Origin: Microcaldota archaeon
GTDB taxonomy: Archaea > Micrarchaeota > Micrarchaeia > Micrarchaeales > Micrarchaeaceae
Assembly (NCBI GenBank): GCA_021806185.1
Contig: JAJZXZ010000006.1
Location: forward strand, 1 to 13,360
Length of the DNA stretch: 13,360 bases
Direction: 5' to 3'
Shown here: positions 1 through 10,298 of the stretch, piece after piece
How the letters are laid out: each line of letters opens with the position of its first letter
Numbering within the stretch: the stretch's first letter is position 1
Made by a program: the position numbers and the translations under genes
The notes under the pieces: generated by a model
The model's input: the letters and a program-made list of their open reading frames with translations, nothing else
Database searches by the model: none
Told to the model about the DNA's origin: nothing

Positions 1-13
1 CTTGATTTGGCAT
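1..13 (-). CDS. Possible 5' end of a leftward gene (partial, unidentified)
   Basis: On the minus strand an ATG lies at 13-11, followed by codons for Pro, Asn and Gln before the window ends. About six bases upstream is an AAGGTGGA stretch (complement of 20-27), a good archaeal Shine-Dalgarno sequence, and the symmetric TTTAAAT near 55-62 could serve as its TATA box. Only four codons are visible, so no product can be named and the gene itself is an inference from the start signals. Confidence 0.3.
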
Positions 14-55
14 GCAATTCCACCTTATTATCGCATCTAAGGCGAATCAAAAGCA

Positions 56-63
56 TTTAAATA
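56..63 (+). promoter_or_regulatory. TATA-like element upstream of the transglutaminase-like gene
   Basis: TTTAAATA sits in an AT-rich stretch. Together with a second AT-rich element, TTTAATAA at 151-158, it could drive the rightward gene. The second lies about 24 bases before the ATG at 178, the usual archaeal TATA-to-start distance for a leaderless mRNA. The first is nearly symmetric and could also serve a leftward gene starting at 13. Confidence 0.4.
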
Positions 64-177
64 CTTTCTGTTTTGAATTTTACTTTCTTTCAAAAGTTGT
101 CAACCGGCTTTTCTAAGAGGTTATTAGCACATTATTGGCAGCAAAAGGATTTTAATAAAGATACGCGAATAGCTAAT

Positions 178-681
178 ATGGACGCAGTCAAAGCATTCGA
201 AAAGATAAGGGACGTCCCCTATAGAATACCTCTAAACCTTAAAGAAAGGGACGATTCCTGTAGCGGGAAAAGCGATAGGTTATTCAAACTTCTAACCAAG
301 ACCGGCTATAAGGTAAGGTACAGGGTTTGCGAGTTTTTGTGGAGCTCGATGGACCTACCAGCTGTAGTTAGAAAAGCACCGCATGAAAACCGCTGCACCC
401 ACACTTATCTGGAGGTTTACATCAATGGCAAATGGAGAGTGCTCGATGCAACATGGGACAAAGGGCTCGGCAGTGTATTGCACGTAAACCACTGGAATGG
501 AGAATCCAGTACAGAGATAGCGGTCAAGCCTATAAAGACATTCACACCGGAAAAGAGCAGATCCGCAGTAAATGCATACGGCACGGAAAAAGAAATCAAG
601 GCCGATTTGAGGGAGAATGGAAGATTTTATAGAGCGTTCAATGAATGGGCTGACATGGTCAGGCATTCTTCCCGAAATTAG
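178..681 (+). CDS. Transglutaminase-like (papain-fold) protein
   Basis: A 167-aa protein resembling the transglutaminase-like superfamily of papain-fold cysteine hydrolases and their relatives. The three expected active-site positions are visible: Cys28 in DSCSGKS, His75 in THTYLEV and Asp90 in LDATWD. The specific substrate cannot be told, and no signal peptide or membrane segment is seen. The frame is open back to a TTG at 73, but 73-177 is only about 30% GC and carries TATA-like elements, while composition rises from 178 onward. I therefore prefer the ATG at 178, read as leaderless; TTG 97 and TTG 73 are alternatives. The gene is more AT-rich than its neighbours and may be a later acquisition. 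Its last 23 bases overlap the convergent nop5 gene. Confidence 0.72.
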   Translation: MDAVKAFEKIRDVPYRIPLNLKERDDSCSGKSDRLFKLLTKTGYKVRYRVCEFLWSSMDLPAVVRKAPHENRCTHTYLEVYINGKWRVLDATWDKGLGSVLHVNHWNGESSTEIAVKPIKTFTPEKSRSAVNAYGTEKEIKADLRENGRFYRAFNEWADMVRHSSRN

Positions 682-1585
682 ATTTCCAGCCGCCTTTCCT
701 GCGCTGGAAACCGCGCCCTCCCATCCTCCTCTGGAAGCCCTTCTTCTCAAAAACCCTATCTGGCGCCTCCTTCTTCGGCTTTATCGGCTTCTCCCTTATC
801 CTCTTTATGCTCTCGTCCAGGTCCTTCTTCAGCTTCTCTGCTATGAAGTTCTTAGAGAAGTGGTCCGCCTTGAGCGCAATGCATATCTTTGTCGCGTATA
901 CTCTCGCAAACCTGCCGCGTATCTCCCGCGGCGCGTTCGTTACCTCAGGTATCTTGAACAGTATCCCGTATTTCGGCGGTTTGCTCCCGAACTTTATGTG
1001 CTTGAATAGCGCCTTTTCGGCTCCTAGCAGCTGCACTGTGCCAGCTGGCATAGTGGCCAGCCTCTCCATCGAGCCCGCCCTGCTCAGCAGCTCTGCAGCT
1101 ATCATATGGCCTGCCAGGTATGTCGTGTTGGGCATTATCCTGGTCGATGCCTTCTTTATATAGGAATCTAGTCCCTTGAGCGAATCCGACATCCCAAGCA
1201 GCATCCGCGCGAATTCCGATATCGCGCTGCCGTCTTCGCCTTCCAGCGCCCTGCCTATTGTCGAAAGCAGCTTATTGTGTATCTCACCTGCGCGTCCCTC
1301 GTCGCCAACAGCCTCCTTTATCGCGGCATCGTCCTTGCCCTTGCCTTGCACTGCCATGACAAGCTTTGCCAGGGTCTCAGGGCTGGTAATTCTGACCTCC
1401 GGAAGGTATATCCCGAACCACTCGCTTAGCCTCTCGTAAGCGAGGTTGAGCGATCTATCCGTCTCGATGTAAGCGTTGACGGCCTGCATCAGCGCGTACT
1501 CCTCGCTCTGGTATGCGCTCCTTATCCCCTCTTTGGCGCTCTCCAGCATTCGCTCCCTTACCCCCTCAAATCCTTTCTTTGGCAA
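659..1585 (-). CDS. nop5: Nop5-type (Nop56/Nop58) C/D box RNP core protein, lacking the usual N-terminal domain
   Basis: Core protein of the archaeal C/D box sRNP, which guides 2'-O-methylation of rRNA and tRNA with L7Ae and fibrillarin. From the TTG at 1585 it is 308 aa. Residues about 17-145 form the long helical coiled-coil region (AVNAYIE, ERLSEWFGIYLPEV). Residues about 150-250 form the NOP domain that binds the box C/D-L7Ae surface (PAGTVQLLGAEKALFKHIK, KPPKYGILF, RGRFARVYATK). The C-terminus is basic and rich in Gly and Arg, with a duplicated GFQRR unit at 283-287 and 292-296. The roughly 100-residue N-terminal domain that holds fibrillarin in known Nop5 proteins is absent. TTG 1585 is chosen because GGTGTG precedes it by three bases and a TATA-like ATTTTATAC lies upstream. 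ATG 1549 is an alternative. The ATG at 1660 lies upstream of the promoter. Confidence 0.88.
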   Translation of the reverse strand: MPKKGFEGVRERMLESAKEGIRSAYQSEEYALMQAVNAYIETDRSLNLAYERLSEWFGIYLPEVRITSPETLAKLVMAVQGKGKDDAAIKEAVGDEGRAGEIHNKLLSTIGRALEGEDGSAISEFARMLLGMSDSLKGLDSYIKKASTRIMPNTTYLAGHMIAAELLSRAGSMERLATMPAGTVQLLGAEKALFKHIKFGSKPPKYGILFKIPEVTNAPREIRGRFARVYATKICIALKADHFSKNFIAEKLKKDLDESIKRIREKPIKPKKEAPDRVFEKKGFQRRMGGRGFQRRKGGWKSNFGKNA

Positions 1586-3346: not shown

Positions 3347-4822
3347 ATGAAGATAGAAGAACTGCTTGCGTATGCGAAGAGCAAGGGCTTCTTCTGGCCT
3401 AGCGCAGAGATATACGGCGGAGCGTCGGGCATATTCGACTACGGGCACGTGGGGGCGCTCCTGAAGAGGAGGTTCGAAAGCCTCTGGCTCTCCTACTTCG
3501 TTGACCAGAATGAGGGCTATCACCTGATAGAGGGATCCGAGATGCTCCCGGAGAAGCCGCTGATAGCGTCCGGCCACGCATCAAGGTTCAATGATGTGCT
3601 GGTAGGCTGCACCAAGTGCAAGACCTTCTTCAGGGCCGATGTGATACTCGCAGAGAAGAAGGTGGCGGTGTCAGAAGGAGCGTCACCGGAAGATATGGAC
3701 AAGCTGATAGAAAAGAGCGGGATAAGGTGCCCGAGATGCGGCGGCGACCTCGGAAAGTCGAAGTCGTTCAACATGATGATCGGAATAAGCCTCGGCCCGG
3801 AGAAGGCGGAGAGGGGCTACCTCAGGCCAGAGACCGCGCAATCCGCATACCTGAACTTCTTCCAGGAATTCAACGTCCTGAGGAAGGCGCTGCCGCTCGG
3901 ACTTGCGATAATAGGCAAAGCGTACAGGAACGAGATATCGCCAAGGCAGGGCCTTTTCAGGCTCAGAGAGCTGACGCAGGCCGAATTGCAGATATTCTTC
4001 GACCCAGAGACCTGGAAGCCGGGGGACGACGGGCTCTCAGAAAGGAAATTCATTGTGGTAACGTACAGCGACAAGAAGACGCAGCTGCTCAGCGCGCATG
4101 AGCTCGCCAAAAGGTACGGCATACCTGAATTCTATGCCTATCACATGGCGCTGATAGACAGGTTCTACACTGACGTGATGGGCGTCCCTAAGGAAAGGTT
4201 CAGGTTCCTTGAGAAGGGCGGCGATGAGAAGGCGTTCTACAACAAGGTCCATATGGACATCGAGGTAGATATAGAGAGCTGGGGAGGTTTCAGGGAGGTC
4301 GGAGGCCTGCACTACAGGACGGATTACGATTTAAGCTCCCACACAAAAGGATCCGGCAAGGACCTCTCAGTAAACATCGCCGGAAAAAGGATAATGCCGC
4401 ACGTGCTCGAGCTGAGTTTCGGAGTCGATAGGAACGTCTGGATGCTCCTGGATCTCTTCTACAAGAAGGACGCAGAGAGGAGCGTGCTGATGCTGCCGAA
4501 GCGGCTCGCCCCGTACCAGGCAGCGGTGTTCCAGCTGCAAAACGACGAGAAGCTCGACCAGACCGCGCAGAAAATATACGAGAGCCTGAAGCACAGGTTC
4601 AAGGTCGTTACCGACAGCTCCGGTTCTATAGGCAGGAGGTATGCGAGGATGGATGATATAGGAACCCCATACTGCATAACTGTAGATTTCAAGAGCACAG
4701 ACAAGGCTGACAAGGAGCACGGCACCGTCACGATAAGGAACCGGGACGACAGGTCGCAATCCAGGGTCAAGATAGACTCGCTTCAGGAGTTTTTTGAAAA
4801 GGCATACACGCACGGTGATTAG
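3347..4822 (+). CDS. glyS: Glycyl-tRNA synthetase (archaeal/eukaryotic dimeric type)
   Basis: Class II aminoacyl-tRNA synthetase charging tRNA-Gly, 491 aa. The N-terminal segment FFWPSAEIYGGASGIFDYG (15-33) is typical of this enzyme. A zinc-ribbon-like insertion follows, with Cys88, Cys91, Cys128 and Cys131. The RPETAQ segment is at 160-165, motif 2 at about 188-212 (YRNEISPRQGLFRLRE) and motif 3 at about 351-370 (HVLELSFGVDR, Arg362). The C-terminal anticodon-binding domain covers about 378-485. It is somewhat shorter than many archaeal GlyRS proteins. Its last two codons, GGT GAT, form a perfect Shine-Dalgarno sequence for the next gene, whose CTG start directly follows the TAG stop. Confidence 0.96.
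   Translation: MKIEELLAYAKSKGFFWPSAEIYGGASGIFDYGHVGALLKRRFESLWLSYFVDQNEGYHLIEGSEMLPEKPLIASGHASRFNDVLVGCTKCKTFFRADVILAEKKVAVSEGASPEDMDKLIEKSGIRCPRCGGDLGKSKSFNMMIGISLGPEKAERGYLRPETAQSAYLNFFQEFNVLRKALPLGLAIIGKAYRNEISPRQGLFRLRELTQAELQIFFDPETWKPGDDGLSERKFIVVTYSDKKTQLLSAHELAKRYGIPEFYAYHMALIDRFYTDVMGVPKERFRFLEKGGDEKAFYNKVHMDIEVDIESWGGFREVGGLHYRTDYDLSSHTKGSGKDLSVNIAGKRIMPHVLELSFGVDRNVWMLLDLFYKKDAERSVLMLPKRLAPYQAAVFQLQNDEKLDQTAQKIYESLKHRFKVVTDSSGSIGRRYARMDDIGTPYCITVDFKSTDKADKEHGTVTIRNRDDRSQSRVKIDSLQEFFEKAYTHGD
4814..4819 (+). promoter_or_regulatory. Shine-Dalgarno sequence for the CTG start of ogg
   Basis: GGTGAT is complementary to the AUCACC of the archaeal 16S rRNA 3' end. It encodes the last two residues of GlyRS (Gly-Asp). 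The TAG stop fills the three-base spacer, and CTG 4823 follows. The same GGTGAT-N3-CTG layout occurs before eS26 and Bud32. Confidence 0.7.
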
Positions 4823-5689
4823 CTGCAGAGCCAGCCCAGCATACCAGTAACCACGTTCTCGCTCAGGCACACGTTCGAGAGCGCGCAGCCGCTGACGTTC
4901 TATGCGGACTTCAATAGGGTGAGCAACACACTCATATACCCGAAAGGAAGCTTCTTTATAAACGTGGTGCAGTCAGGCAGCGACGAGAAAGGGCGCTTGC
5001 ACGTGAGCGGAGTCCGCCCTAAAGATGGAGTGCGCGAGGTGAGGAGGAGATTCAGGCTCAGAGACGACATGGGCAGGATATATGAGAACATACGGCCAGA
5101 CACGTACATCGCAAGGGCGATAGATTCATATATGGGAATGAGGCTTACCCTCAACGACCCGTGGGAGACAACGCTCGTATTCATAATATCGCAGTTCAAC
5201 AACGTGAAGCGCATACGGCTTATAACACGGAACATAATCGGTAAGTACGGAAGTGAGATAGAGGGCCATGACGGGATAAAGGCGAGGAGCTTCCCAACAA
5301 GCGCAGATATGATGAAGGCTACCGAGAAGGAGCTCAAACGGCTTGGCGCAGGGTACCGCGCAAGGTATATAATCGGGGCGGCGGATTACTGCACAAACAA
5401 CGTAGACCTAGGCGAGCTGCCGGCCCACAAGTACTTGAAGCTGAAGGAGGAGCTGATGCAGATAGACGGAGTTGGTGAAAAGGTGGCCGATTGCATAGCC
5501 CTGATGGGCTACGGCAACCTGAAGGCATTCCCGATAGACGTGCACATAAAAAGGACCATGGAGAAACTCTACTTCGGGGGAAAGGCAAAGAGGATGCACG
5601 AGATACGTGAGTTTGCGGAGAGCAGGTGGGGTAACTACATGGGATACGCACAGCAGTACCTATTCCACAATGCGAGGATGATGGCATGA
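4823..5689 (+). CDS. ogg: 8-oxoguanine DNA glycosylase/AP lyase, OGG1 type (CTG start)
   Basis: Bifunctional base-excision-repair enzyme removing 8-oxoguanine, 288 aa from CTG 4823. It matches human OGG1 point by point. The helix-hairpin-helix is IDGVGEKVADC with catalytic Lys220, and the catalytic Asp239 is in FPIDVHI, 19 residues later as in OGG1. Cys224, Gln277 and Phe281, which recognise 8-oxoG, are present, as are Tyr178 and Arg179 (GAGYRARY). The residue matching OGG1 Asn149 is Phe125, which may alter opposite-base choice. The first ATG/GTG/TTG in frame is GTG 4919, but codons 4823-4918 encode TFSLRHTFESAQPLTF. That matches the OGG1 N-terminal strand with its SGQ-F/W motif, so the protein must start upstream of 4919. 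It shares an operon with glyS and overlaps translin by four bases (ATGA). Confidence 0.9.
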   Translation: MQSQPSIPVTTFSLRHTFESAQPLTFYADFNRVSNTLIYPKGSFFINVVQSGSDEKGRLHVSGVRPKDGVREVRRRFRLRDDMGRIYENIRPDTYIARAIDSYMGMRLTLNDPWETTLVFIISQFNNVKRIRLITRNIIGKYGSEIEGHDGIKARSFPTSADMMKATEKELKRLGAGYRARYIIGAADYCTNNVDLGELPAHKYLKLKEELMQIDGVGEKVADCIALMGYGNLKAFPIDVHIKRTMEKLYFGGKAKRMHEIREFAESRWGNYMGYAQQYLFHNARMMA

Positions 5690-6258
5690 AGGCACTTGAC
5701 GCTGACATAGAAAATATAGCTGGCGGGCTTACCAGGAAACAATCGGACTTCGATGTAGTGATGCAGCTTTCGAGGGAACTTATCCGTGATGCCGGCCAGA
5801 CGATCACTTTCATGCACAACAACGAGATAAAAAAAGCTGCAGAAAAGCTGCGCGCCATGGCATCAACGGTGAAGAGGCTGCAGAAGATAGACTCCAAGTT
5901 CAGGTACCATACGATGCAGGCGTATCAGGAGTATGCAGAGGCCAGGATCTTCGCTGACATAAAGACCAAACGAACGGTCACCCCGCTAAGCGGCGTGAGA
6001 GTCGATGGCGATGCATACTTGATGGGGCTGATGGATGTGGAGGGGGAGCTGAAAAGGGAGATATTGGAGTCCCTCAGGGCCGGCAGAGTGAAGGAAGCGG
6101 AATGGTACTTCGACACAATGAAGAGGATATACGACTCAACAAGGAAGCTAAGGTTCGCCGAGGCTGTCTTGCCCGGGTTCAGGAAGAAACAGGATACCGC
6201 GAGGATCCAGATAGAGAATGCGGGCAGCGAGATACTGATGTTCAAGAGAAGGCGCTAG
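5686..6258 (+). CDS. Translin/TRAX-family nucleic-acid-binding protein
   Basis: A 190-aa, mostly helical protein of the translin superfamily, whose members form octamers that bind single-stranded RNA or DNA; TRAX-type members cleave RNA. Family features seen are QAYQEYAEARIF (78-89), the acidic GLMDVEGELKREIL segment (114-127) and the C-terminal LPGFRKKQDTARIQIE (162-177). Acidic residues Glu82, Glu85, Asp117, Glu119 and Glu121 could make up a TRAX-like metal site, so RNase activity is possible but unproven. The start ATG overlaps the stop of the glycosylase (ATGA), implying translational coupling, and GATGAT lies three bases before it. The stop lies in a CTAG shared with the stop of the convergent HTH gene. 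Confidence 0.88.
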   Translation: MKALDADIENIAGGLTRKQSDFDVVMQLSRELIRDAGQTITFMHNNEIKKAAEKLRAMASTVKRLQKIDSKFRYHTMQAYQEYAEARIFADIKTKRTVTPLSGVRVDGDAYLMGLMDVEGELKREILESLRAGRVKEAEWYFDTMKRIYDSTRKLRFAEAVLPGFRKKQDTARIQIENAGSEILMFKRRR

Positions 6259-6566
6259 CGCAGCCTGAGATACACTGACGATGCAGCCAGGTCTATGCTC
6301 TTGTTGACCGTGTCGGCATGGCTGCCGGACGCGGCGAGCTTGGCTATCCTGTTGTCCAGGCCCATCTCCTTTATCCTCGCAGCAACCATGGCTATCCTTT
6401 CTGAATAATCGCCATTGATATACTTGTTGACAGACGCCTGTGTTATCCCAAGCCTGTCTGCTATCTCCTGCTGCCCCATCTTGTACTTACGCTTGAGCAG
6501 CCTTGCCACAGCAACCCTCACCGCAGGTATCGCAGTCCTTATAATGCTGTCGCACTCAGATACCAT
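6255..6566 (-). CDS. Archaeal HTH transcriptional regulator (COG2522-like)
   Basis: A 103-aa predicted DNA-binding protein. A Cro/XRE-type helix-turn-helix spans about residues 30-52 (GQQEIADRLGITQASVNKYI). It is preceded by IPAVRVAVARLLKRKY, the arrangement of the small archaeal COG2522 regulators. The C-terminal half is helical with no recognisable ligand domain. The ATG at 6566 overlaps the TGA stop of the upstream gene by one base (TGATG). GTG 6569 would add one residue. The two are almost certainly co-transcribed, so the regulator may control its own operon with the RpiB-like protein. The gene ends within CTAG, sharing bases with the translin stop on the other strand. Confidence 0.82.
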   Translation of the reverse strand: MVSECDSIIRTAIPAVRVAVARLLKRKYKMGQQEIADRLGITQASVNKYINGDYSERIAMVAARIKEMGLDNRIAKLAASGSHADTVNKSIDLAASSVYLRLR

Positions 6567-7213
6567 CACTCTACACCGAAAGTGTCCTTTAACGATCCGA
6601 ACAGACCTTTGCCCTTTTTGTTCTGCTGCGGTGGTTCCTGCACCTTCTTAGGCTTCTGCGCCTCACGTTCGGCCCTCTTTTGCAAGACTGGCGCTGGCTT
6701 CTCCTTAGGCGCAGGCGCGCCAGCTCCGAATACATTCTTTATCGAGCCGAACATTCCGCTGCCCTGCTGCTTCTGCGGCAGCGCAGCTTGCTGCACGGTC
6801 TTCTCCCCCTTCGGTTGGACATCCGCTATCTGCCTCTGCCTGCCCATGGCGTTTCCGAACGAGTCCTCTACGCTCTTGATTATGCCCCTCGTGTCCATCC
6901 TGTAGACTTTAGACGAATCGAGTATTATCACGTTGCTCTTCGCCTGCATGGCGGAAACCGCGTCATCGACGTCCTTGCACACTGCAGCGCGCACCCCGCT
7001 GACCTTGTTCGCCTCTATTACCGCATCCATAGGCTTCTTTGAAACAAGTATTGATACGTCATACCCTGAGATCGAGTCGCGTATGTCCTTTATCAGGATC
7101 CTGTAGTCGTCCGTGTCTTCGTCGCTCATTATGCAGGTGTTCCCGCTCCTGTTTATTATGTTGGCTAAGCGTATGCTCAGACCCTTGTCATCAGATGCCA
7201 AATATACCCGCAT
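6566..7213 (-). CDS. Degenerate RpiB-fold protein with a three-copy C-terminal FG motif
   Basis: Residues 1-100 of this 215-aa protein follow ribose-5-phosphate isomerase B / LacAB from end to end. MRVYLASDDKG aligns with the RpiB SDHAG region, and EANKVSGVRAAVC (67-79) aligns with the ANKVPGIRAALC signature. The catalytic CGTG segment is replaced by LVSKKP, and the His after the first Asp is Asp, so isomerase activity is unlikely. The C-terminal 115 residues are Gln/Pro/Lys-rich and probably disordered. They contain three copies of a G-x-x-x-S-hydrophobic-(K/E)-(N/D)-x-F-G motif at 110-120, 153-163 and 203-213. Start ATG 7213 is chosen because of the TATA box at 7231-7240 and GGGGAT three bases upstream. 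An in-frame start at 7249 lies before the promoter. Function unknown. Confidence 0.78.
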   Translation of the reverse strand: MRVYLASDDKGLSIRLANIINRSGNTCIMSDEDTDDYRILIKDIRDSISGYDVSILVSKKPMDAVIEANKVSGVRAAVCKDVDDAVSAMQAKSNVIILDSSKVYRMDTRGIIKSVEDSFGNAMGRQRQIADVQPKGEKTVQQAALPQKQQGSGMFGSIKNVFGAGAPAPKEKPAPVLQKRAEREAQKPKKVQEPPQQNKKGKGLFGSLKDTFGVE

Positions 7214-7230
7214 CGGATCCCCCATGCCGA

Positions 7231-7240
7231 TAATAAATCT
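7231..7240 (-). promoter_or_regulatory. Probable TATA box for the RpiB-like/HTH operon
   Basis: The minus strand reads AGATTTATTA, centred about 22 bases before ATG 7213, so the transcript would be leaderless or nearly so. It stands back to back with the promoter region of the eS26 gene. Confidence 0.5.
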
Positions 7241-7251
7241 TGCTGACATGG

Positions 7252-7260
7252 TTATTAAGC
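7252..7260 (+). promoter_or_regulatory. Possible TATA element for the eS26 operon
   Basis: TTATTAAGC would place the transcription start near 7281, only just ahead of the Shine-Dalgarno sequence GGTGAT at 7282-7287. The match to the TATA consensus is moderate. Confidence 0.35.
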
Positions 7261-7281
7261 TTTGTGATGGAATAAGGATAA

Positions 7282-7287
7282 GGTGAT
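7282..7287 (+). promoter_or_regulatory. Shine-Dalgarno sequence for the CTG start of eS26
   Basis: GGTGAT (inside AAGGTGAT) pairs with the archaeal anti-Shine-Dalgarno and lies three bases before CTG 7291. The competing GTG at 7312 has only a weak purine-rich stretch about 13 bases away. This site helps decide the start. Confidence 0.6.
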
Positions 7288-7290
7288 GAA

Positions 7291-7521
7291 CTGAGAGGAA
7301 GAGACACCCTCGTGGTTTGCGAATCGTGCGGCAGGAAGGTACCGAGAAACAAGGCTGTGATCGACGAAAAAGCGATACGCTTCAGCACCGAGCTGAAGAA
7401 TGCCAACGATGTAAGGTTCTTCGAGCGCAGGAAGGTGGTGTACTGCATAAGCTGCGCGAAGCACAGAGGAATATTCGAGAAGAAGAAGCGCCAGGCCATA
7501 GAACGGGCGAAAAGGTTCTGA
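7291..7521 (+). CDS. rps26e: Small ribosomal subunit protein eS26 (likely CTG start)
   Basis: A 76-aa zinc-ribbon protein of the 30S subunit, in the region that in eukaryotes binds mRNA near the exit channel. The eS26 signature is clear: CESCGRKVPRNKAV followed by YCISCAKHRGI, with zinc ligands Cys10, Cys13, Cys52 and Cys55. From the CTG at 7291 the N-terminus reads MRGRDTLVV, which resembles the Arg/Gly-rich segment before the first Cys pair in longer eS26 proteins. The conventional choice, GTG 7312, would drop seven residues and has no well-placed ribosome binding site. The next gene starts one base after the stop. As I recall, eS26 is present in only part of the Archaea. Confidence 0.85.
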   Translation: MRGRDTLVVCESCGRKVPRNKAVIDEKAIRFSTELKNANDVRFFERRKVVYCISCAKHRGIFEKKKRQAIERAKRF

Positions 7522-7522
7522 A

Positions 7523-8338
7523 ATGGTGGAGAAGGAGGATCTGCTAATCTTCAGTATGCGCGAGGGAAGCGCAACGCAGCCGGCCGCTCAGCCGGCTGAG
7601 GCACAGCCGGTCATTGCGCAGCCGTCCAAGCCAGTGCCGCAAAAGAAGAAGGAGGAGAAAGGGCAGGAGCTGAAGGCGCAGAGTAGGCAGGCTGCCAAAG
7701 GGCTTTACTGTGAATGGCACCCGTGGAGGCCTGCGTATGCTGTGTGCTACACCTGCCACAAGCCCTTTTGCTACGAGGACATATCTGAATACAACAACAA
7801 GTACTACTGCCTTGAGGACATAGACTCTGCGGTTGCCAGGGAGAAGCCCCAGCTGACGTTCGCTTTCAACAAGGTGAGCATGCTGCCTGCAAGCCTCTTC
7901 CTGCTGACCATGTTGGTGTATATATACTTCGTCAACGCGGTCATCGCCTATATCGCGACTAACGCAGCCAGCGTCGGCATACAGGCATTCATAGCCAGCA
8001 ATTTCATACAGAGCGTGAACCTTAGCTATGTGATGCTCTTTGTCGGGTTAGCCATACTCGCATTCCTATTCGCAGGAGGACTCCTCATATTCGCGCAATC
8101 AAGGAAAGGATACTGGCTCAGCATATTCTCCGGCTCTATAGCTTTCATATTCTTCAGCTATGTCTACATAGCAAATTTCCAGGACTACGGCTTCATAATA
8201 GGCGCGCTGACGCTAGCCGGGCTGATAACCATGAGGTTTGCGGTCAATTCGCGCACCACAGAGGAGGAGCAGGCGGCAGGCGCCCCGCCTCTTCCAAGCA
8301 GCTTCAAGTACGGCGCCCAGTCCCAGCTGCGTTTCTGA
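7523..8338 (+). CDS. B-box-type zinc finger membrane protein
   Basis: A 271-aa protein of unknown function with three parts. Residues 1-60 are a low-complexity Ala/Gln/Pro then Lys-rich cytoplasmic linker. Residues 61-100 form a B-box-like zinc finger with Cys63, His66, Cys75, Cys78, Cys83 and Cys96 and the recurrent HPWRPAYAVCYTC signature. Four hydrophobic segments follow at about 118-146, 168-191, 197-217 and 222-241, then a polar tail. It is likely an integral membrane protein with the zinc finger on the cytoplasmic side. ATG 7523 lies one base after the eS26 stop, so the two are probably one operon. The stop TGA forms TGATCA with the stop of the convergent Bud32 gene, leaving no intergenic bases. 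Confidence 0.82.
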   Translation: MVEKEDLLIFSMREGSATQPAAQPAEAQPVIAQPSKPVPQKKKEEKGQELKAQSRQAAKGLYCEWHPWRPAYAVCYTCHKPFCYEDISEYNNKYYCLEDIDSAVAREKPQLTFAFNKVSMLPASLFLLTMLVYIYFVNAVIAYIATNAASVGIQAFIASNFIQSVNLSYVMLFVGLAILAFLFAGGLLIFAQSRKGYWLSIFSGSIAFIFFSYVYIANFQDYGFIIGALTLAGLITMRFAVNSRTTEEEQAAGAPPLPSSFKYGAQSQLRF

Positions 8339-8962
8339 TCAGCCGGCCATCAGCGTGCGCGCCTGGTACCTTCCCCTCCTCTCTATCTCGGCAAGCCGCC
8401 CCATTATCTCGCCGCTGGATCCGCAGCTCTTCCTGTAACCGGCAAGGAACCTCCTGAAAAGGCCCGGGCGCACAGACCTTTTCATAAGAAGCAGGTCCAA
8501 AGCCTTCTCCTCTGTTGACTTCGTGCTCTCAGCAAGTCCGAAGTCTATTATCCAAATCCTATCTGCATTATCAAGCATGAGGTTCGCAGGAGTATAGTCA
8601 CCGTGCGCTATGCCGATGTTGTGCAGCATCCCGCAGCATACTCCCGCATCGTGCATTGCCCTGCCAAGCCTAGCGCTGCCGATCCTGGCAAGCCCCATTG
8701 TGAATTCGTGCAGGCTCCTGCCGCGTATCCTCCCCATGCATATGCTTGTGCGTTCGACCAGCAGCACGTTCGGGACGTTCATGCCGTGCGACGAGGCCGC
8801 ATAAAGCAGCCGAGCTTCGCTTTTTGTGCGTTGGCGCCTGAGCCTATCGTCAAGCTGCTTTATCCTGTAGCTCTTCGCTATCCTTTCCTTGACTATCGCA
8901 TCTATCCCAAGGAACTCCGTCTCATAAATCCTCGCTTCAGCGCCTTCAGATATGAGTCTCAG
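8339..8962 (-). CDS. bud32: Bud32/PRPK atypical protein kinase of the KEOPS complex (CTG start)
   Basis: Small atypical kinase/ATPase that works with Kae1 in KEOPS to make the tRNA modification t6A at A37. From CTG 8962 it is 207 aa, beginning MRLISEGAEARIYETEF, the canonical Bud32 start. Nucleotide-binding Lys25 (VKER), Glu49 (KSEARLL), catalytic Asp122 and Asn127 in HGDYTPAN, metal-binding Asp140 in IDFGLAE, and the C-terminal RRGRYQAR are all present. The first in-frame ATG (8782) would remove 60 residues including the ATP-binding lobe, and no ATG, GTG or TTG exists between the upstream in-frame stop at 8977-8975 and 8782. GGTGAT is three bases before the CTG and overlaps the Kae1 stop, so the genes are probably translationally coupled. 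Confidence 0.93.
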   Translation of the reverse strand: MRLISEGAEARIYETEFLGIDAIVKERIAKSYRIKQLDDRLRRQRTKSEARLLYAASSHGMNVPNVLLVERTSICMGRIRGRSLHEFTMGLARIGSARLGRAMHDAGVCCGMLHNIGIAHGDYTPANLMLDNADRIWIIDFGLAESTKSTEEKALDLLLMKRSVRPGLFRRFLAGYRKSCGSSGEIMGRLAEIERRGRYQARTLMAG

Positions 8963-8965
8963 ACG

Positions 8966-8971
8966 ATCACC
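8966..8971 (-). promoter_or_regulatory. Shine-Dalgarno sequence for the CTG start of bud32
   Basis: The minus strand reads GGTGAT, then CGT, then CTG at 8962-8960. The sequence includes the TGA stop of kae1, so terminating ribosomes would sit directly on it. Layout and spacing are the same as at ogg and eS26. Confidence 0.7.
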
Positions 8972-9944
8972 ACGTCACCTTGACCGTGTCAACGCGGTAC
9001 CTCTGATTTATGCCTAGCTGCTCTGCGCTGTAGCGCTGCCCGCTTCTGTACATCTTCTCCGCCACTACGGCAATCATCGCGCCATTATCCGCATTCAGCT
9101 CATTCGGCGAGACGAAGAATCCCGCACCGTGGCATTTCGCTACAATTCCGAGCATCTCCTTCAGCCTCTTGCTCTGCGCAACGCCACCGCAAACCATCAG
9201 CTCCCTCTTCTTTGCAAGGAGGAGCGCGCGCTCGGTAGCCTCGCAGAGCATCGCAAACGATGTTTCCTGCAACGAATATGCGGTATCCTTGACCGAGTGG
9301 CTTTTCAGCGCCTTCTCGGCAAAGGTCTGCAGCCCTGTGAAGGTGAAGTCCATGCCCTTTACAGTGTACGGCATCTCAAAGTACCTGCCGCCATCTGCAA
9401 CCTTGGCAACAGTGGAGCCCCATGCAGGGACAAGGCGTGCAGCGCGCGCAAAGCTGTCTATCATGTTTCCGATTCCTATATCGAATGTTTCGCCGTAAAC
9501 GTGGTAGTGTCTGAACGGGCTGTCTACGAGGCCCAATATCTGGGAGTTGCCTCCGCTGACATAGAGAACAAGCGGATCCCTCAGCCTGAACGCCTGCTTC
9601 GTAACCTCTATGTGGCCCAGCGCGTGGTTGACCGGCATGAGCGGCAGTTTGTATCTCTTTGAGATAAGCGCCGCAACAAGCTGGCCTACCGCAAGGCATG
9701 GCCCAAGCCCTGGCCCCTTGGTATACCCTACGGCTTCCACATCGCGCGGTTTTATTCCAGCCTCGTCCAGAGCGCGCTTTACCACCAAATGGGCATTCCT
9801 CATGTGGAATCCGGCGACCTTTACGGGTATCATGCCCCTCTCTTTTATCGGGTACATGCTCTTCTGGTTGGCGAGTATCCTGCCGTTGTCGCAGATGCCG
9901 ACTCCAAATGTGTGCGCTGTACTCTCAATTCCAAGCACGGCCAT
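8967..9944 (-). CDS. kae1: Kae1 (TsaD/OSGEP family), catalytic subunit of KEOPS
   Basis: Threonylcarbamoyl transferase that transfers the threonylcarbamoyl group to A37 of ANN-decoding tRNAs (t6A), 325 aa. It has the ASKHA-fold signatures: GIESTAHTFGVGI (5-17), GYTKGPGLGPCL (73-84), the metal site His107 and His111 in NHALGHIEV, SGGNSQ (130-135), GETFDIGIGNMIDSFAR (151-167), VCGGVAQSKRL (251-261) and Asp286 in NADNGAM. All catalytic and metal ligands are present. ATG 9944 gives the standard MAVLGIEST start; an in-frame TTG at 9968 would add eight residues not seen in the family. It is separate from Bud32, unlike the fused form in some archaea, and lies directly upstream of bud32 and downstream of eIF1. 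Confidence 0.97.
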   Translation of the reverse strand: MAVLGIESTAHTFGVGICDNGRILANQKSMYPIKERGMIPVKVAGFHMRNAHLVVKRALDEAGIKPRDVEAVGYTKGPGLGPCLAVGQLVAALISKRYKLPLMPVNHALGHIEVTKQAFRLRDPLVLYVSGGNSQILGLVDSPFRHYHVYGETFDIGIGNMIDSFARAARLVPAWGSTVAKVADGGRYFEMPYTVKGMDFTFTGLQTFAEKALKSHSVKDTAYSLQETSFAMLCEATERALLLAKKRELMVCGGVAQSKRLKEMLGIVAKCHGAGFFVSPNELNADNGAMIAVVAEKMYRSGQRYSAEQLGINQRYRVDTVKVTW

Positions 9945-9992: not shown

Positions 9993-10298
9993 TCAGATGA
10001 CATCTATTATGTCCTCCTTGTAGCCCATCCCGATCAGCGCCTTCTTCGTCGTGTCCTTGTGGTCGCCCTGCAGCTCAACTACGCCGTCCCTGCTCGTCCC
10101 GCCGCAGGCTAGTATCCTCTTGAGGTTCTTCTCCGCGCTCTCGAGCTCGTCGTTGTTTATGCCCTCTATGACGGTCACTACGCGGTTGAACTTCGCCTTC
10201 TTTGTATAGACCCGTATTTTGCTCTCCGTCTCGCGGTCAAGTACGGAGCATACGCAGATGTCTTTGGGTAATCCGCATTTTGGACATACGTCTGGCAT
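9993..10298 (-). CDS. sui1: Translation initiation factor aIF1 (SUI1/eIF1)
   Basis: A 101-aa archaeal eIF1 homologue that helps the 30S subunit select start codons. An N-terminal zinc-ribbon-like segment has Cys5, Cys8, Cys15 and Cys17. The SUI1 domain follows (KFNRVVTVIEGI, LKRILACGGTSRDGVVELQGDHKD), with the conserved basic and CGG regions intact. ATG 10298 overlaps the TAA stop of uL29 (TAATG). Its presence is notable because this window contains several apparent CTG initiation codons, and eIF1 governs start-codon stringency. Confidence 0.96.
   Translation of the reverse strand: MPDVCPKCGLPKDICVCSVLDRETESKIRVYTKKAKFNRVVTVIEGINNDELESAEKNLKRILACGGTSRDGVVELQGDHKDTTKKALIGMGYKEDIIDVI

Follow-up and report, generated by a model that had tools for sequence, protein, structure and literature searches.

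How is translation begun at genes that carry no ATG, GTG or TTG where their proteins should start? This question is raised by a 13,360-nt stretch of DNA from a tiny uncultured Micrarchaeota archaeon (hereafter the window, meaning the whole stretch analysed), in which the genes for an 8-oxoguanine DNA glycosylase (ogg), ribosomal protein eS26 and the KEOPS kinase Bud32 each present the hexamer GGTGAT, three further bases and then a CTG codon. Based on sequence comparison, we consider it about 85% probable that translation of the three genes does begin at these CTG codons, reached by a 30S subunit positioned through the Shine-Dalgarno (SD) sequence, and that CTG is one case of near-cognate initiation.

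Three copies of the arrangement GGTGAT-N3-CTG (GGTGATNNNCTG) are present in the window, at 4814-4825 and 7282-7293 on the plus strand and at 8971-8960 on the minus strand, compared to a mean of 0.13 expected from 200 dinucleotide shuffles, none of which reached three. These are exactly the positions at which a preliminary description of the window had placed the motif, at the expected starts of the three genes. Since GGTGAT by itself is not enriched (five occurrences vs 4.54 in the shuffles), the unusual feature is its pairing with CTG at a three-base spacing. Each CTG is in frame with its own gene and located at the N-terminus predicted by homology, and in all three genes no ATG, GTG or TTG is found between the in-frame upstream stop and the CTG. 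The next conventional in-frame codon follows 32 codons past the CTG in ogg, 60 in bud32 and 7 in eS26 (GTG at 7312), in agreement with the earlier statements that bud32 lacks a conventional start ahead of its ATP-binding lobe and that the first one in ogg, which lies within the matched domains, would cut a conserved part. Weaker matches with the same spacing, described at 1714, 1585, 5686, 7213 and 12640, are present in the sequence as quoted. Leaderless mRNA starts are improbable for the three genes, given the exact SD at -9 to -4 before each of them.

Relatives were collected with the Kae1 protein of the window as query, which found 151 loci, of which the best 80 (L-numbers), most of them from Micrarchaeota, were kept. 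The nearest relative, L001 (isolate FK3.bin110), has a Kae1 that is 91% identical and shows 87% nucleotide identity across 9.2 kb; it belongs to genome G001, of about 700 kb, within a family set of 85 genomes (G-numbers). The p values reported throughout ignore the relatedness of the sequences. Residues 7-285 of the ogg product match positions 10-305 of the 310 in TIGR00588 (155 bits, under the cut-off of 398) and residues 8-116 match the OGG_N domain (20.2 bits, cut-off 23), while HhH-GPD was also matched. Residues 7-200 of Bud32 cover the complete TIGR03724 profile (1-193 of 193; 178 bits, over the cut-off of 125). The eS26 product is just under the Pfam Ribosomal_S26e cut-off of 27 (E=1.9e-5, 25.5 bits), all 54 of its 54 PDB matches at E up to 0.1 are named S26 or eS26, and it is shorter than other eS26 proteins by about 14 N-terminal residues.

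The comparison with L001 is informative for all three genes. Its ogg retains GGTGATTAGCTG, that is, both CTG and GGTGAT, and the ogg CTG is present in L004 too (GGTGGTTAGCTG). Its eS26 start reads GGTGATGCCCTG vs GGTGATGAACTG in the window, a change of spacer (GAA to GCC) that leaves motif and CTG unchanged, and its bud32 (GGTGATCGGTTG) keeps GGTGAT with TTG at the position of the window's CTG, the aligned codon being ATG in L002, L003 and L004. The codon of relatives, proposed earlier as a check, is thus CTG again at ogg and eS26 in L001 and TTG or ATG at bud32. For eS26, CTG was found in three of 42 loci (L001, L003 and L007). Elsewhere the codon aligned with the ogg or eS26 CTG is TTG or ATG. 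Of the 85 family genomes, 82 have an eS26 match; its start codon is TTG in 62 of them, ATG in 14, CTG in three (G001, G018 and G020) and GTG in three. In 75 genomes this start coincides with the aligned codon, and in seven it lies one or two codons further upstream; this tally excludes a second copy in G009 and is not fully independent of the SD, as the picking rule prefers codons with an SD score >2. Furthermore, L044 ogg has ACG and L076 bud32 has ATA, both behind exact GGTGAT.

In the stretch from the CTG to the next conventional start, the window and L001 are separated by 10 synonymous and 4 nonsynonymous codon changes in ogg (21.7 and 74.3 sites) and by 16 and 6 in bud32 (42.3 and 137.7 sites). 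Given some 3.3-3.4 times more nonsynonymous sites, this preponderance of synonymous differences points to protein constraint from the CTG onward. The whole of eS26 differs by 14 synonymous and one nonsynonymous change; its seven codons ahead of the GTG are identical in both, so this stretch is uninformative here. With GGTGAT kept in L001, CTG either kept or exchanged with TTG or ATG in relatives, and mostly synonymous differences in ogg and bud32, the three codons are most likely genuine CTG starts.

GGTGAT had been described as the complement of AUCACC in the 16S 3′ end. In both near relatives in which the 16S gene was found (two of eight) its 3′ region reads GATAGATCACCTC, to which GGTGAT is complementary, in agreement with this point. 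Upstream of 593 ATG-first open reading frames (ORFs) taken from G001, G020 and G022 stretches, positions -9 to -4 show the consensus G-G-T-G-A-T, and GGTG stands at -9 in 49 cases, compared to at most 11 at any other position. GGTGAT-N3-start is therefore the ordinary start signal of this lineage; the perfect hexamer is rare before the first conventional ATG (3/643). The 16S gene of G001 (L158, G001:C14:105389-106474, minus strand) matches piecewise and past AATCGGATCAGATA diverges from that of G020, possibly due to an intron or an assembly break.

Eight near relatives contain 28 matches to GGTGATNNNCTG, compared to 15 for the reversed pattern. Sites were regarded as start-like when no conventional start lay between the upstream stop and the codon, the codon was at most 50 codons from that stop and at least 80 codons were open. 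Seven of the 28 CTG sites are start-like, compared to one of the 30 examined among 71 CTH (GGTGATNNNCTH) matches (p=0.02), as are ten of the 30 examined among 89 ATH matches (p=0.003 vs CTH) and one of the five ACG sites. A single gene of G024, present in two copies, accounts for two of the seven CTG sites, three start-like ATH sites (L367, L374 and L388) appear non-coding by eye and were retained in the count, and the eS26 site falls outside the class because the gene is only 76 codons long. Start-like CTG codons include those of Trm1 in G022 (TIGR00308 matched from profile position 2; next start at +30) and of a family-2 glycosyltransferase in G018 (next start at +33). A 120-aa protein has CTG in G001, where a GTG follows three codons later, and in G024, with an aligned ATG in G020 and G076 and a TTG four codons upstream in G022. 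Conservation at 87% nucleotide identity and the start-like sites together argue for natural CTG initiation, as had been suggested. A search for N-terminal extensions by homology only gave at least 93 entries; many are leader stretches that can likewise be aligned among relatives, and no count from it was used.

Near-cognate codons were also analysed as a class. Each codon between the upstream stop and the first ATG, GTG or TTG in ORFs of at least 90 codons was scored for a six-base SD at the N3 spacing, using a matrix built from the ATG-first ORFs of the discovery set (the G001, G020 and G022 stretches, with the window and L001 left out) and held fixed for replication. In the discovery set exact GGTGAT preceded 5 of 1246 CTG, ACG, ATA, ATT and ATC codons vs 0 of 10781 other codons (p=1.2e-5). 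For the Kae1 loci (L002-L080, with L006 and L007 omitted), which contain the ogg and bud32 genes of further species and so do not provide an independent test, the figures were 7/1307 vs 3/13302 (p=4e-6), with each of the three other codons directly followed by ATG. AAG and AGG showed no excess after GGTGAT (0/486 and 0/621). Codon by codon, at an SD score of at least 4, ACG and ATA were significant in the discovery set and ACG in the Kae1 loci, and at a cut-off of 3.5 CTG alone reached 6/219 in the Kae1 loci (p=0.0027). Replication at SD scores of at least 4 gave 4/408 vs 1/3358 in G076 (p=6e-4), 5/391 vs 6/2468 in G071 (p=0.011) and 11/1147 vs 18/9224 in the pooled data (p=1.5e-4); for the exact motif the pooled figures were 3/1147 vs 2/9224 (p=0.011). 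In the discovery set the surplus amounts to about 10 cases among 1134 ORFs, and, as a rough estimate, SD-supported near-cognate starts may occur at near 1% of genes.

Among the individual candidates, GrpE presents GGTGAT-N3-ATT in G001, G018, G024 and G025 (spacers AGC, AAA, TAA and AAA, respectively), with no conventional codon before it, and exact GGTGAT also precedes an ATA in G021 and a CTG in G040. Homologues with ATG carry AGTGAT in G022, G045 and G084, and in many more the ATG follows a poor SD; of the 73 genomes with a GrpE match, 30 were read for their start. An RNHCP protein (starts read in 30 of 71 matched genomes) has GGTGAT followed by ATC in G001, G018, G021 and G022 and by ATA in G024. 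Profiles reach the N-terminus, being matched from position 1 to 3, for the CTG of Trm1, the ACG of uS15 and of ornithine carbamoyltransferase, and the ATA of PheT and of Nmd3. At its putative start PheT has ATA in G071 (next start at +14; ATG at offset 0 in 3/3 orthologues), uS15 has ACG in G022 (ATG at offset 0 in 2/2) and Nmd3 has ATA in G071 (next start at +66; ATG and GTG at offset 0 in 2/4, ATG and ATA at offset 1 in 2/4). Ornithine carbamoyltransferase has ACG in G001 and TTG in G020 (1/1, offset 0) behind the same GGTGGTTGA; an assignment to PyrB was rejected, as the best matches are ornithine carbamoyltransferases. In G076, GGTGAT-TAA-ATC precedes a spermidine synthase-like gene (G076:C1, about 248,109) whose next conventional start lies 108 codons in. 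With the same arrangement found with ATT, ATC, ATA and ACG at other genes of the family, CTG would belong to a wider SD-supported use of near-cognate starts in Micrarchaeota; the CTG of the preliminary description stands, and its restriction to CTG appears too narrow, as the other four codons seem to be used alike. TBP, with ACG in G022 and G020, aligns with an offset of two codons and was not counted. In a pair of aligned homologues that are 94% identical, start and SD differ together (GGTGATTTT-ACG on the minus strand of L031, at reverse-complement offset 12383, vs AGTGATTTA-ATG in L017); this pair is ambiguous, with an ATG two codons further on.

The preliminary description had also proposed that a strong SD compensates for a poor start codon, and this was only partly borne out. 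When bud32 starts were chosen by codon class and position alone, with the SD unused (74 of 81 sequences), exact GGTGAT preceded three of nine non-ATG starts (window, L001 and L076) vs none of 65 ATG starts (p=0.0013). On the other hand, a rank comparison of bud32 over all SD scores was not significant (p=0.17), and the eS26 CTG of G018 and G020 sits behind the weaker GGTGTT, contrary to compensation. The GGTGA of bud32 is partly dictated by the end of kae1 (a Trp codon and TGA). Compensation by the SD for GUG and UUG has been reported before (PMC5622118, in its available text).

Several observations weigh against genuine near-cognate starts. The position-blind count of GGTGAT-N3-CTG in the 80 Kae1 loci (five matches) lies within the range of other spacings, for which reason position at gene starts was examined instead. 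For other codons in the eight near relatives, matches vs those of the reversed pattern were 71 vs 69 (CTH), 89 vs 76 (ATH) and 5 vs 47 (ACG). CTG alone, at SD scores of at least 4, gave 1/154 in the discovery set (p=0.31) and 2/219 in the Kae1 loci (p=0.11), the class effect being carried mainly by ATA and ACG. Replication in further near-clade stretches (382 kb), one of the three replication samples, was null at that threshold (2/348 vs 11/3398, p=0.34), as it was for exact GGTGAT (0/348 vs 1/3398). Among the 41 candidate near-cognate starts, 13 have no match in the sequences compared, another two represent the same place and several are shifted relative to the aligned codon, and the picking rule favours codons with an SD. 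Conventional codons follow three codons in for uS15 (ATG) and two codons in for ornithine carbamoyltransferase, and in three of the five near-clade genomes with the RNHCP arrangement (G021, G022 and G024) a conventional codon with a poor SD lies upstream, leaving only G001 and G018 as clean cases. Two of the three non-ATG bud32 cases with GGTGAT, the window and L001, are close kin. Finally, the GTG seven codons into eS26 would retain its first Cys, so the eS26 case rests on comparison and not on a missing alternative start. The case for probable CTG starts in the three window genes rests, more generally, on gene-by-gene comparison.

As to mechanism, all six bases of GGTGAT would pair with AUCACC close to the 16S 3′ end and so position the 30S subunit, and the usual three-base spacing of the lineage would place CTG in the P site. 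Most likely, the SD duplex then keeps the subunit on this codon until Met-tRNAi can be accepted despite a single mismatch, the initiator Met-tRNA (CAU) decoding CUG through a first-position mismatch. Initiation at CTG, with Met as the first residue, is what we infer from these comparisons. No sign of a dedicated CUG initiator tRNA was found in 38 stretches of G020 and G022, a partial scan that predicted two tRNA-Met(CAU) genes and in which initiator and elongator were not separated. A tRNA-Ile with anticodon UAU is predicted at L174:8564-8640 (G020), the usual form for AUA decoding in archaea being tRNA-Ile CAU. It is further conceivable, if unlikely, that Micrarchaeaceae possess an inherited, working class of near-cognate starts (CTG, ATT, ATC, ATA and ACG behind a strong SD of the GGTGAT type, at about 1% of genes, translation and chaperone genes included), at some of which the weak codon is kept on purpose, and that the level of eS26, a protein located in the mRNA exit channel in eukaryotes (PMC7531240, available text), could tune such starts. 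The eS26 gene itself retains TTG or CTG after a GGTG motif in most family members.

Termination-reinitiation coupling could make a near-cognate codon usable in place of the SD. The ogg CTG directly abuts the TAG of GlyRS and the bud32 CTG lies four bases beyond the kae1 TGA, so that reinitiation probably contributes at these two genes, and an in-frame stop also serves as spacer elsewhere (TGA-CTG before Trm1 in G022, TAA-ATT before GrpE in G024). However, the gene upstream of eS26 is divergent, a stop spacer is present in only two of the seven start-like CTG sites and in three of the ten for ATH, and exact SDs occur with and without it, which makes coupling as the sole explanation rather doubtful. 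That the CTG codons are unused and shorter proteins begin at the next conventional codon would agree with the start codons named for archaea (ATG, GTG and TTG; PMC7531240, available text), and a GTG is available at +7 in eS26 and at +8 in L001 ogg. We regard this as quite improbable: in ogg and bud32 the next start lies inside matched domains and the stretches that would be skipped differ from L001 mostly at synonymous positions, the L001 ogg GTG is GTA in the window while CTG is present in both, and L003 eS26 has CTG together with GTT where the window has GTG.

That start selection was relaxed in this lineage because a fidelity factor was lost, for instance the rRNA dimethyltransferase KsgA/Dim1, is very improbable. 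According to the available text of PMC7897474, non-AUG starts are over-represented among the proteins raised when KsgA/Dim1 is deleted in E. coli or Haloferax, and only weak RrnaAD matches (E ~1e-4) were found in the near-clade genomes G018, G021 and G023. Nevertheless, the metagenome-assembled genomes are incomplete, RrnaAD is above cut-off in 74 of the 85 family genomes (weakly in some) and strong (E <1e-42) in G001, G019, G020, G022, G024 and G025, and the window itself carries an aIF1/SUI1 gene above the profile cut-off (9993-10298). An origin of the CTG codons from TTG or ATG by sequencing or assembly error is suggested by the TTG opposite the window's CTG in L001 bud32, yet it is very improbable, as CTG recurs in separately assembled genomes (ogg and eS26 in L001, ogg in L004, eS26 in G018 and G020) and GGTGAT-TAA also precedes the ATC of G076.

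SD-supported initiation at near-cognate codons, the explanation preferred here, can be compared with known systems. In bacteria near-cognate starts are rare, an example being the AUU of infC. The present cases resemble infC in having a codon other than ATG, GTG or TTG at the true N-terminus that is kept at the same gene (the GrpE ATT, four of 30 genomes read), and differ from it in involving several codons (CTG, ATT, ATC, ATA and ACG), unrelated genes, an archaeal family and a strong SD. Eukaryotic near-cognate initiation uses CUG, ACG, AUA and others, AAG and AGG being poor, a codon set similar to the present one, in which AAG and AGG also lack an excess; whereas it depends on scanning and Kozak context, the cases described here are linked to SD pairing. 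As in the start-codon switching of Belinky et al. 2017 (PMC5622118), a weaker start goes with a stronger SD. In the available text of that study switches to CUG were found for 2 of 61,358 ancestral AUG, 1 of 5,080 GUG and 1 of 2,468 UUG starts, whereas the eS26 CTG occurs in three of 82 family genomes and in the window, and AUN and ACG starts are added. SD-led archaeal initiation at AUG, GUG and UUG likewise involves pairing with the 16S 3′ end (PMC7531240), while the available text of that review contains no CUG, AUA or "non-AUG". No dedicated paper on near-cognate starts in Micrarchaeota or DPANN was found by title or abstract in the open literature. If true, a number of housekeeping genes in a large uncultured group would have an incorrect start annotation or none, and a natural archaeal system would be at hand in which SD strength seems to buy tolerance of one-mismatch starts other than AAG and AGG. 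Since archaeal initiation mixes eukaryote-like factors with a bacterial-like SD, conserved near-cognate starts would allow the trade-off between these selection modes to be measured.

Table 1. Features of the window at and around the three putative CTG starts.
Feature	Position	Strand	Remarks
GlyRS	3347..4822	+	ORF; NF003211 (467 bits) and TIGR00389; TAG stop 4820-4822 forms the ogg spacer
ogg SD GGTGAT	4814..4819	+	Within the last GlyRS codons; same hexamer in L001, GGTGGT in L004
ogg inferred start CTG	4823..4825	+	CTG also in L001 and L004; next conventional start +32 codons
ogg, 8-oxoguanine DNA glycosylase, 288 aa from CTG	4823..5689	+	OGG_N, HhH-GPD, TIGR00588
eS26 SD GGTGAT	7282..7287	+	Same in L001 with another spacer; GGTGTT in 34/82 family genomes
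eS26 inferred start CTG	7291..7293	+	Comparison with relatives; most have TTG
eS26 ribosomal protein, 76 aa	7291..7521	+	Ribosomal_S26e; PDB matches
bud32 SD GGTGAT	8966..8971	-	Overlaps kae1 stop TGA (8969-8967)
bud32 inferred start CTG	8960..8962	-	TTG in L001, ATG in L002-L004
bud32, KEOPS kinase, 207 aa from CTG	8339..8962	-	TIGR03724
kae1	8967..9944	-	Upstream of bud32, overlaps bud32 SD

The start of kae1 was placed near 9944 because the match to most relatives begins at residue 8 or 9 of the ORF that opens with TTG. Window positions 1-720, with an ORF at 73-681, are not syntenic with L001: the alignment ends at window position 720, and L001 continues. Found in 82 of 85 genomes, eS26 is nearly universal in this Micrarchaeota family; it has been described as absent in euryarchaeotes and present in TACK and Asgard archaea (PMC7531240, available text). 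The use of TTG in 62 of 82 eS26 genes far exceeds the share of TTG among the first conventional codons of the near clade (285/1134; the p value ignores relatedness), and a GGTG motif is located just upstream of this TTG in most cases. The conserved weak start of eS26 could be regulatory.

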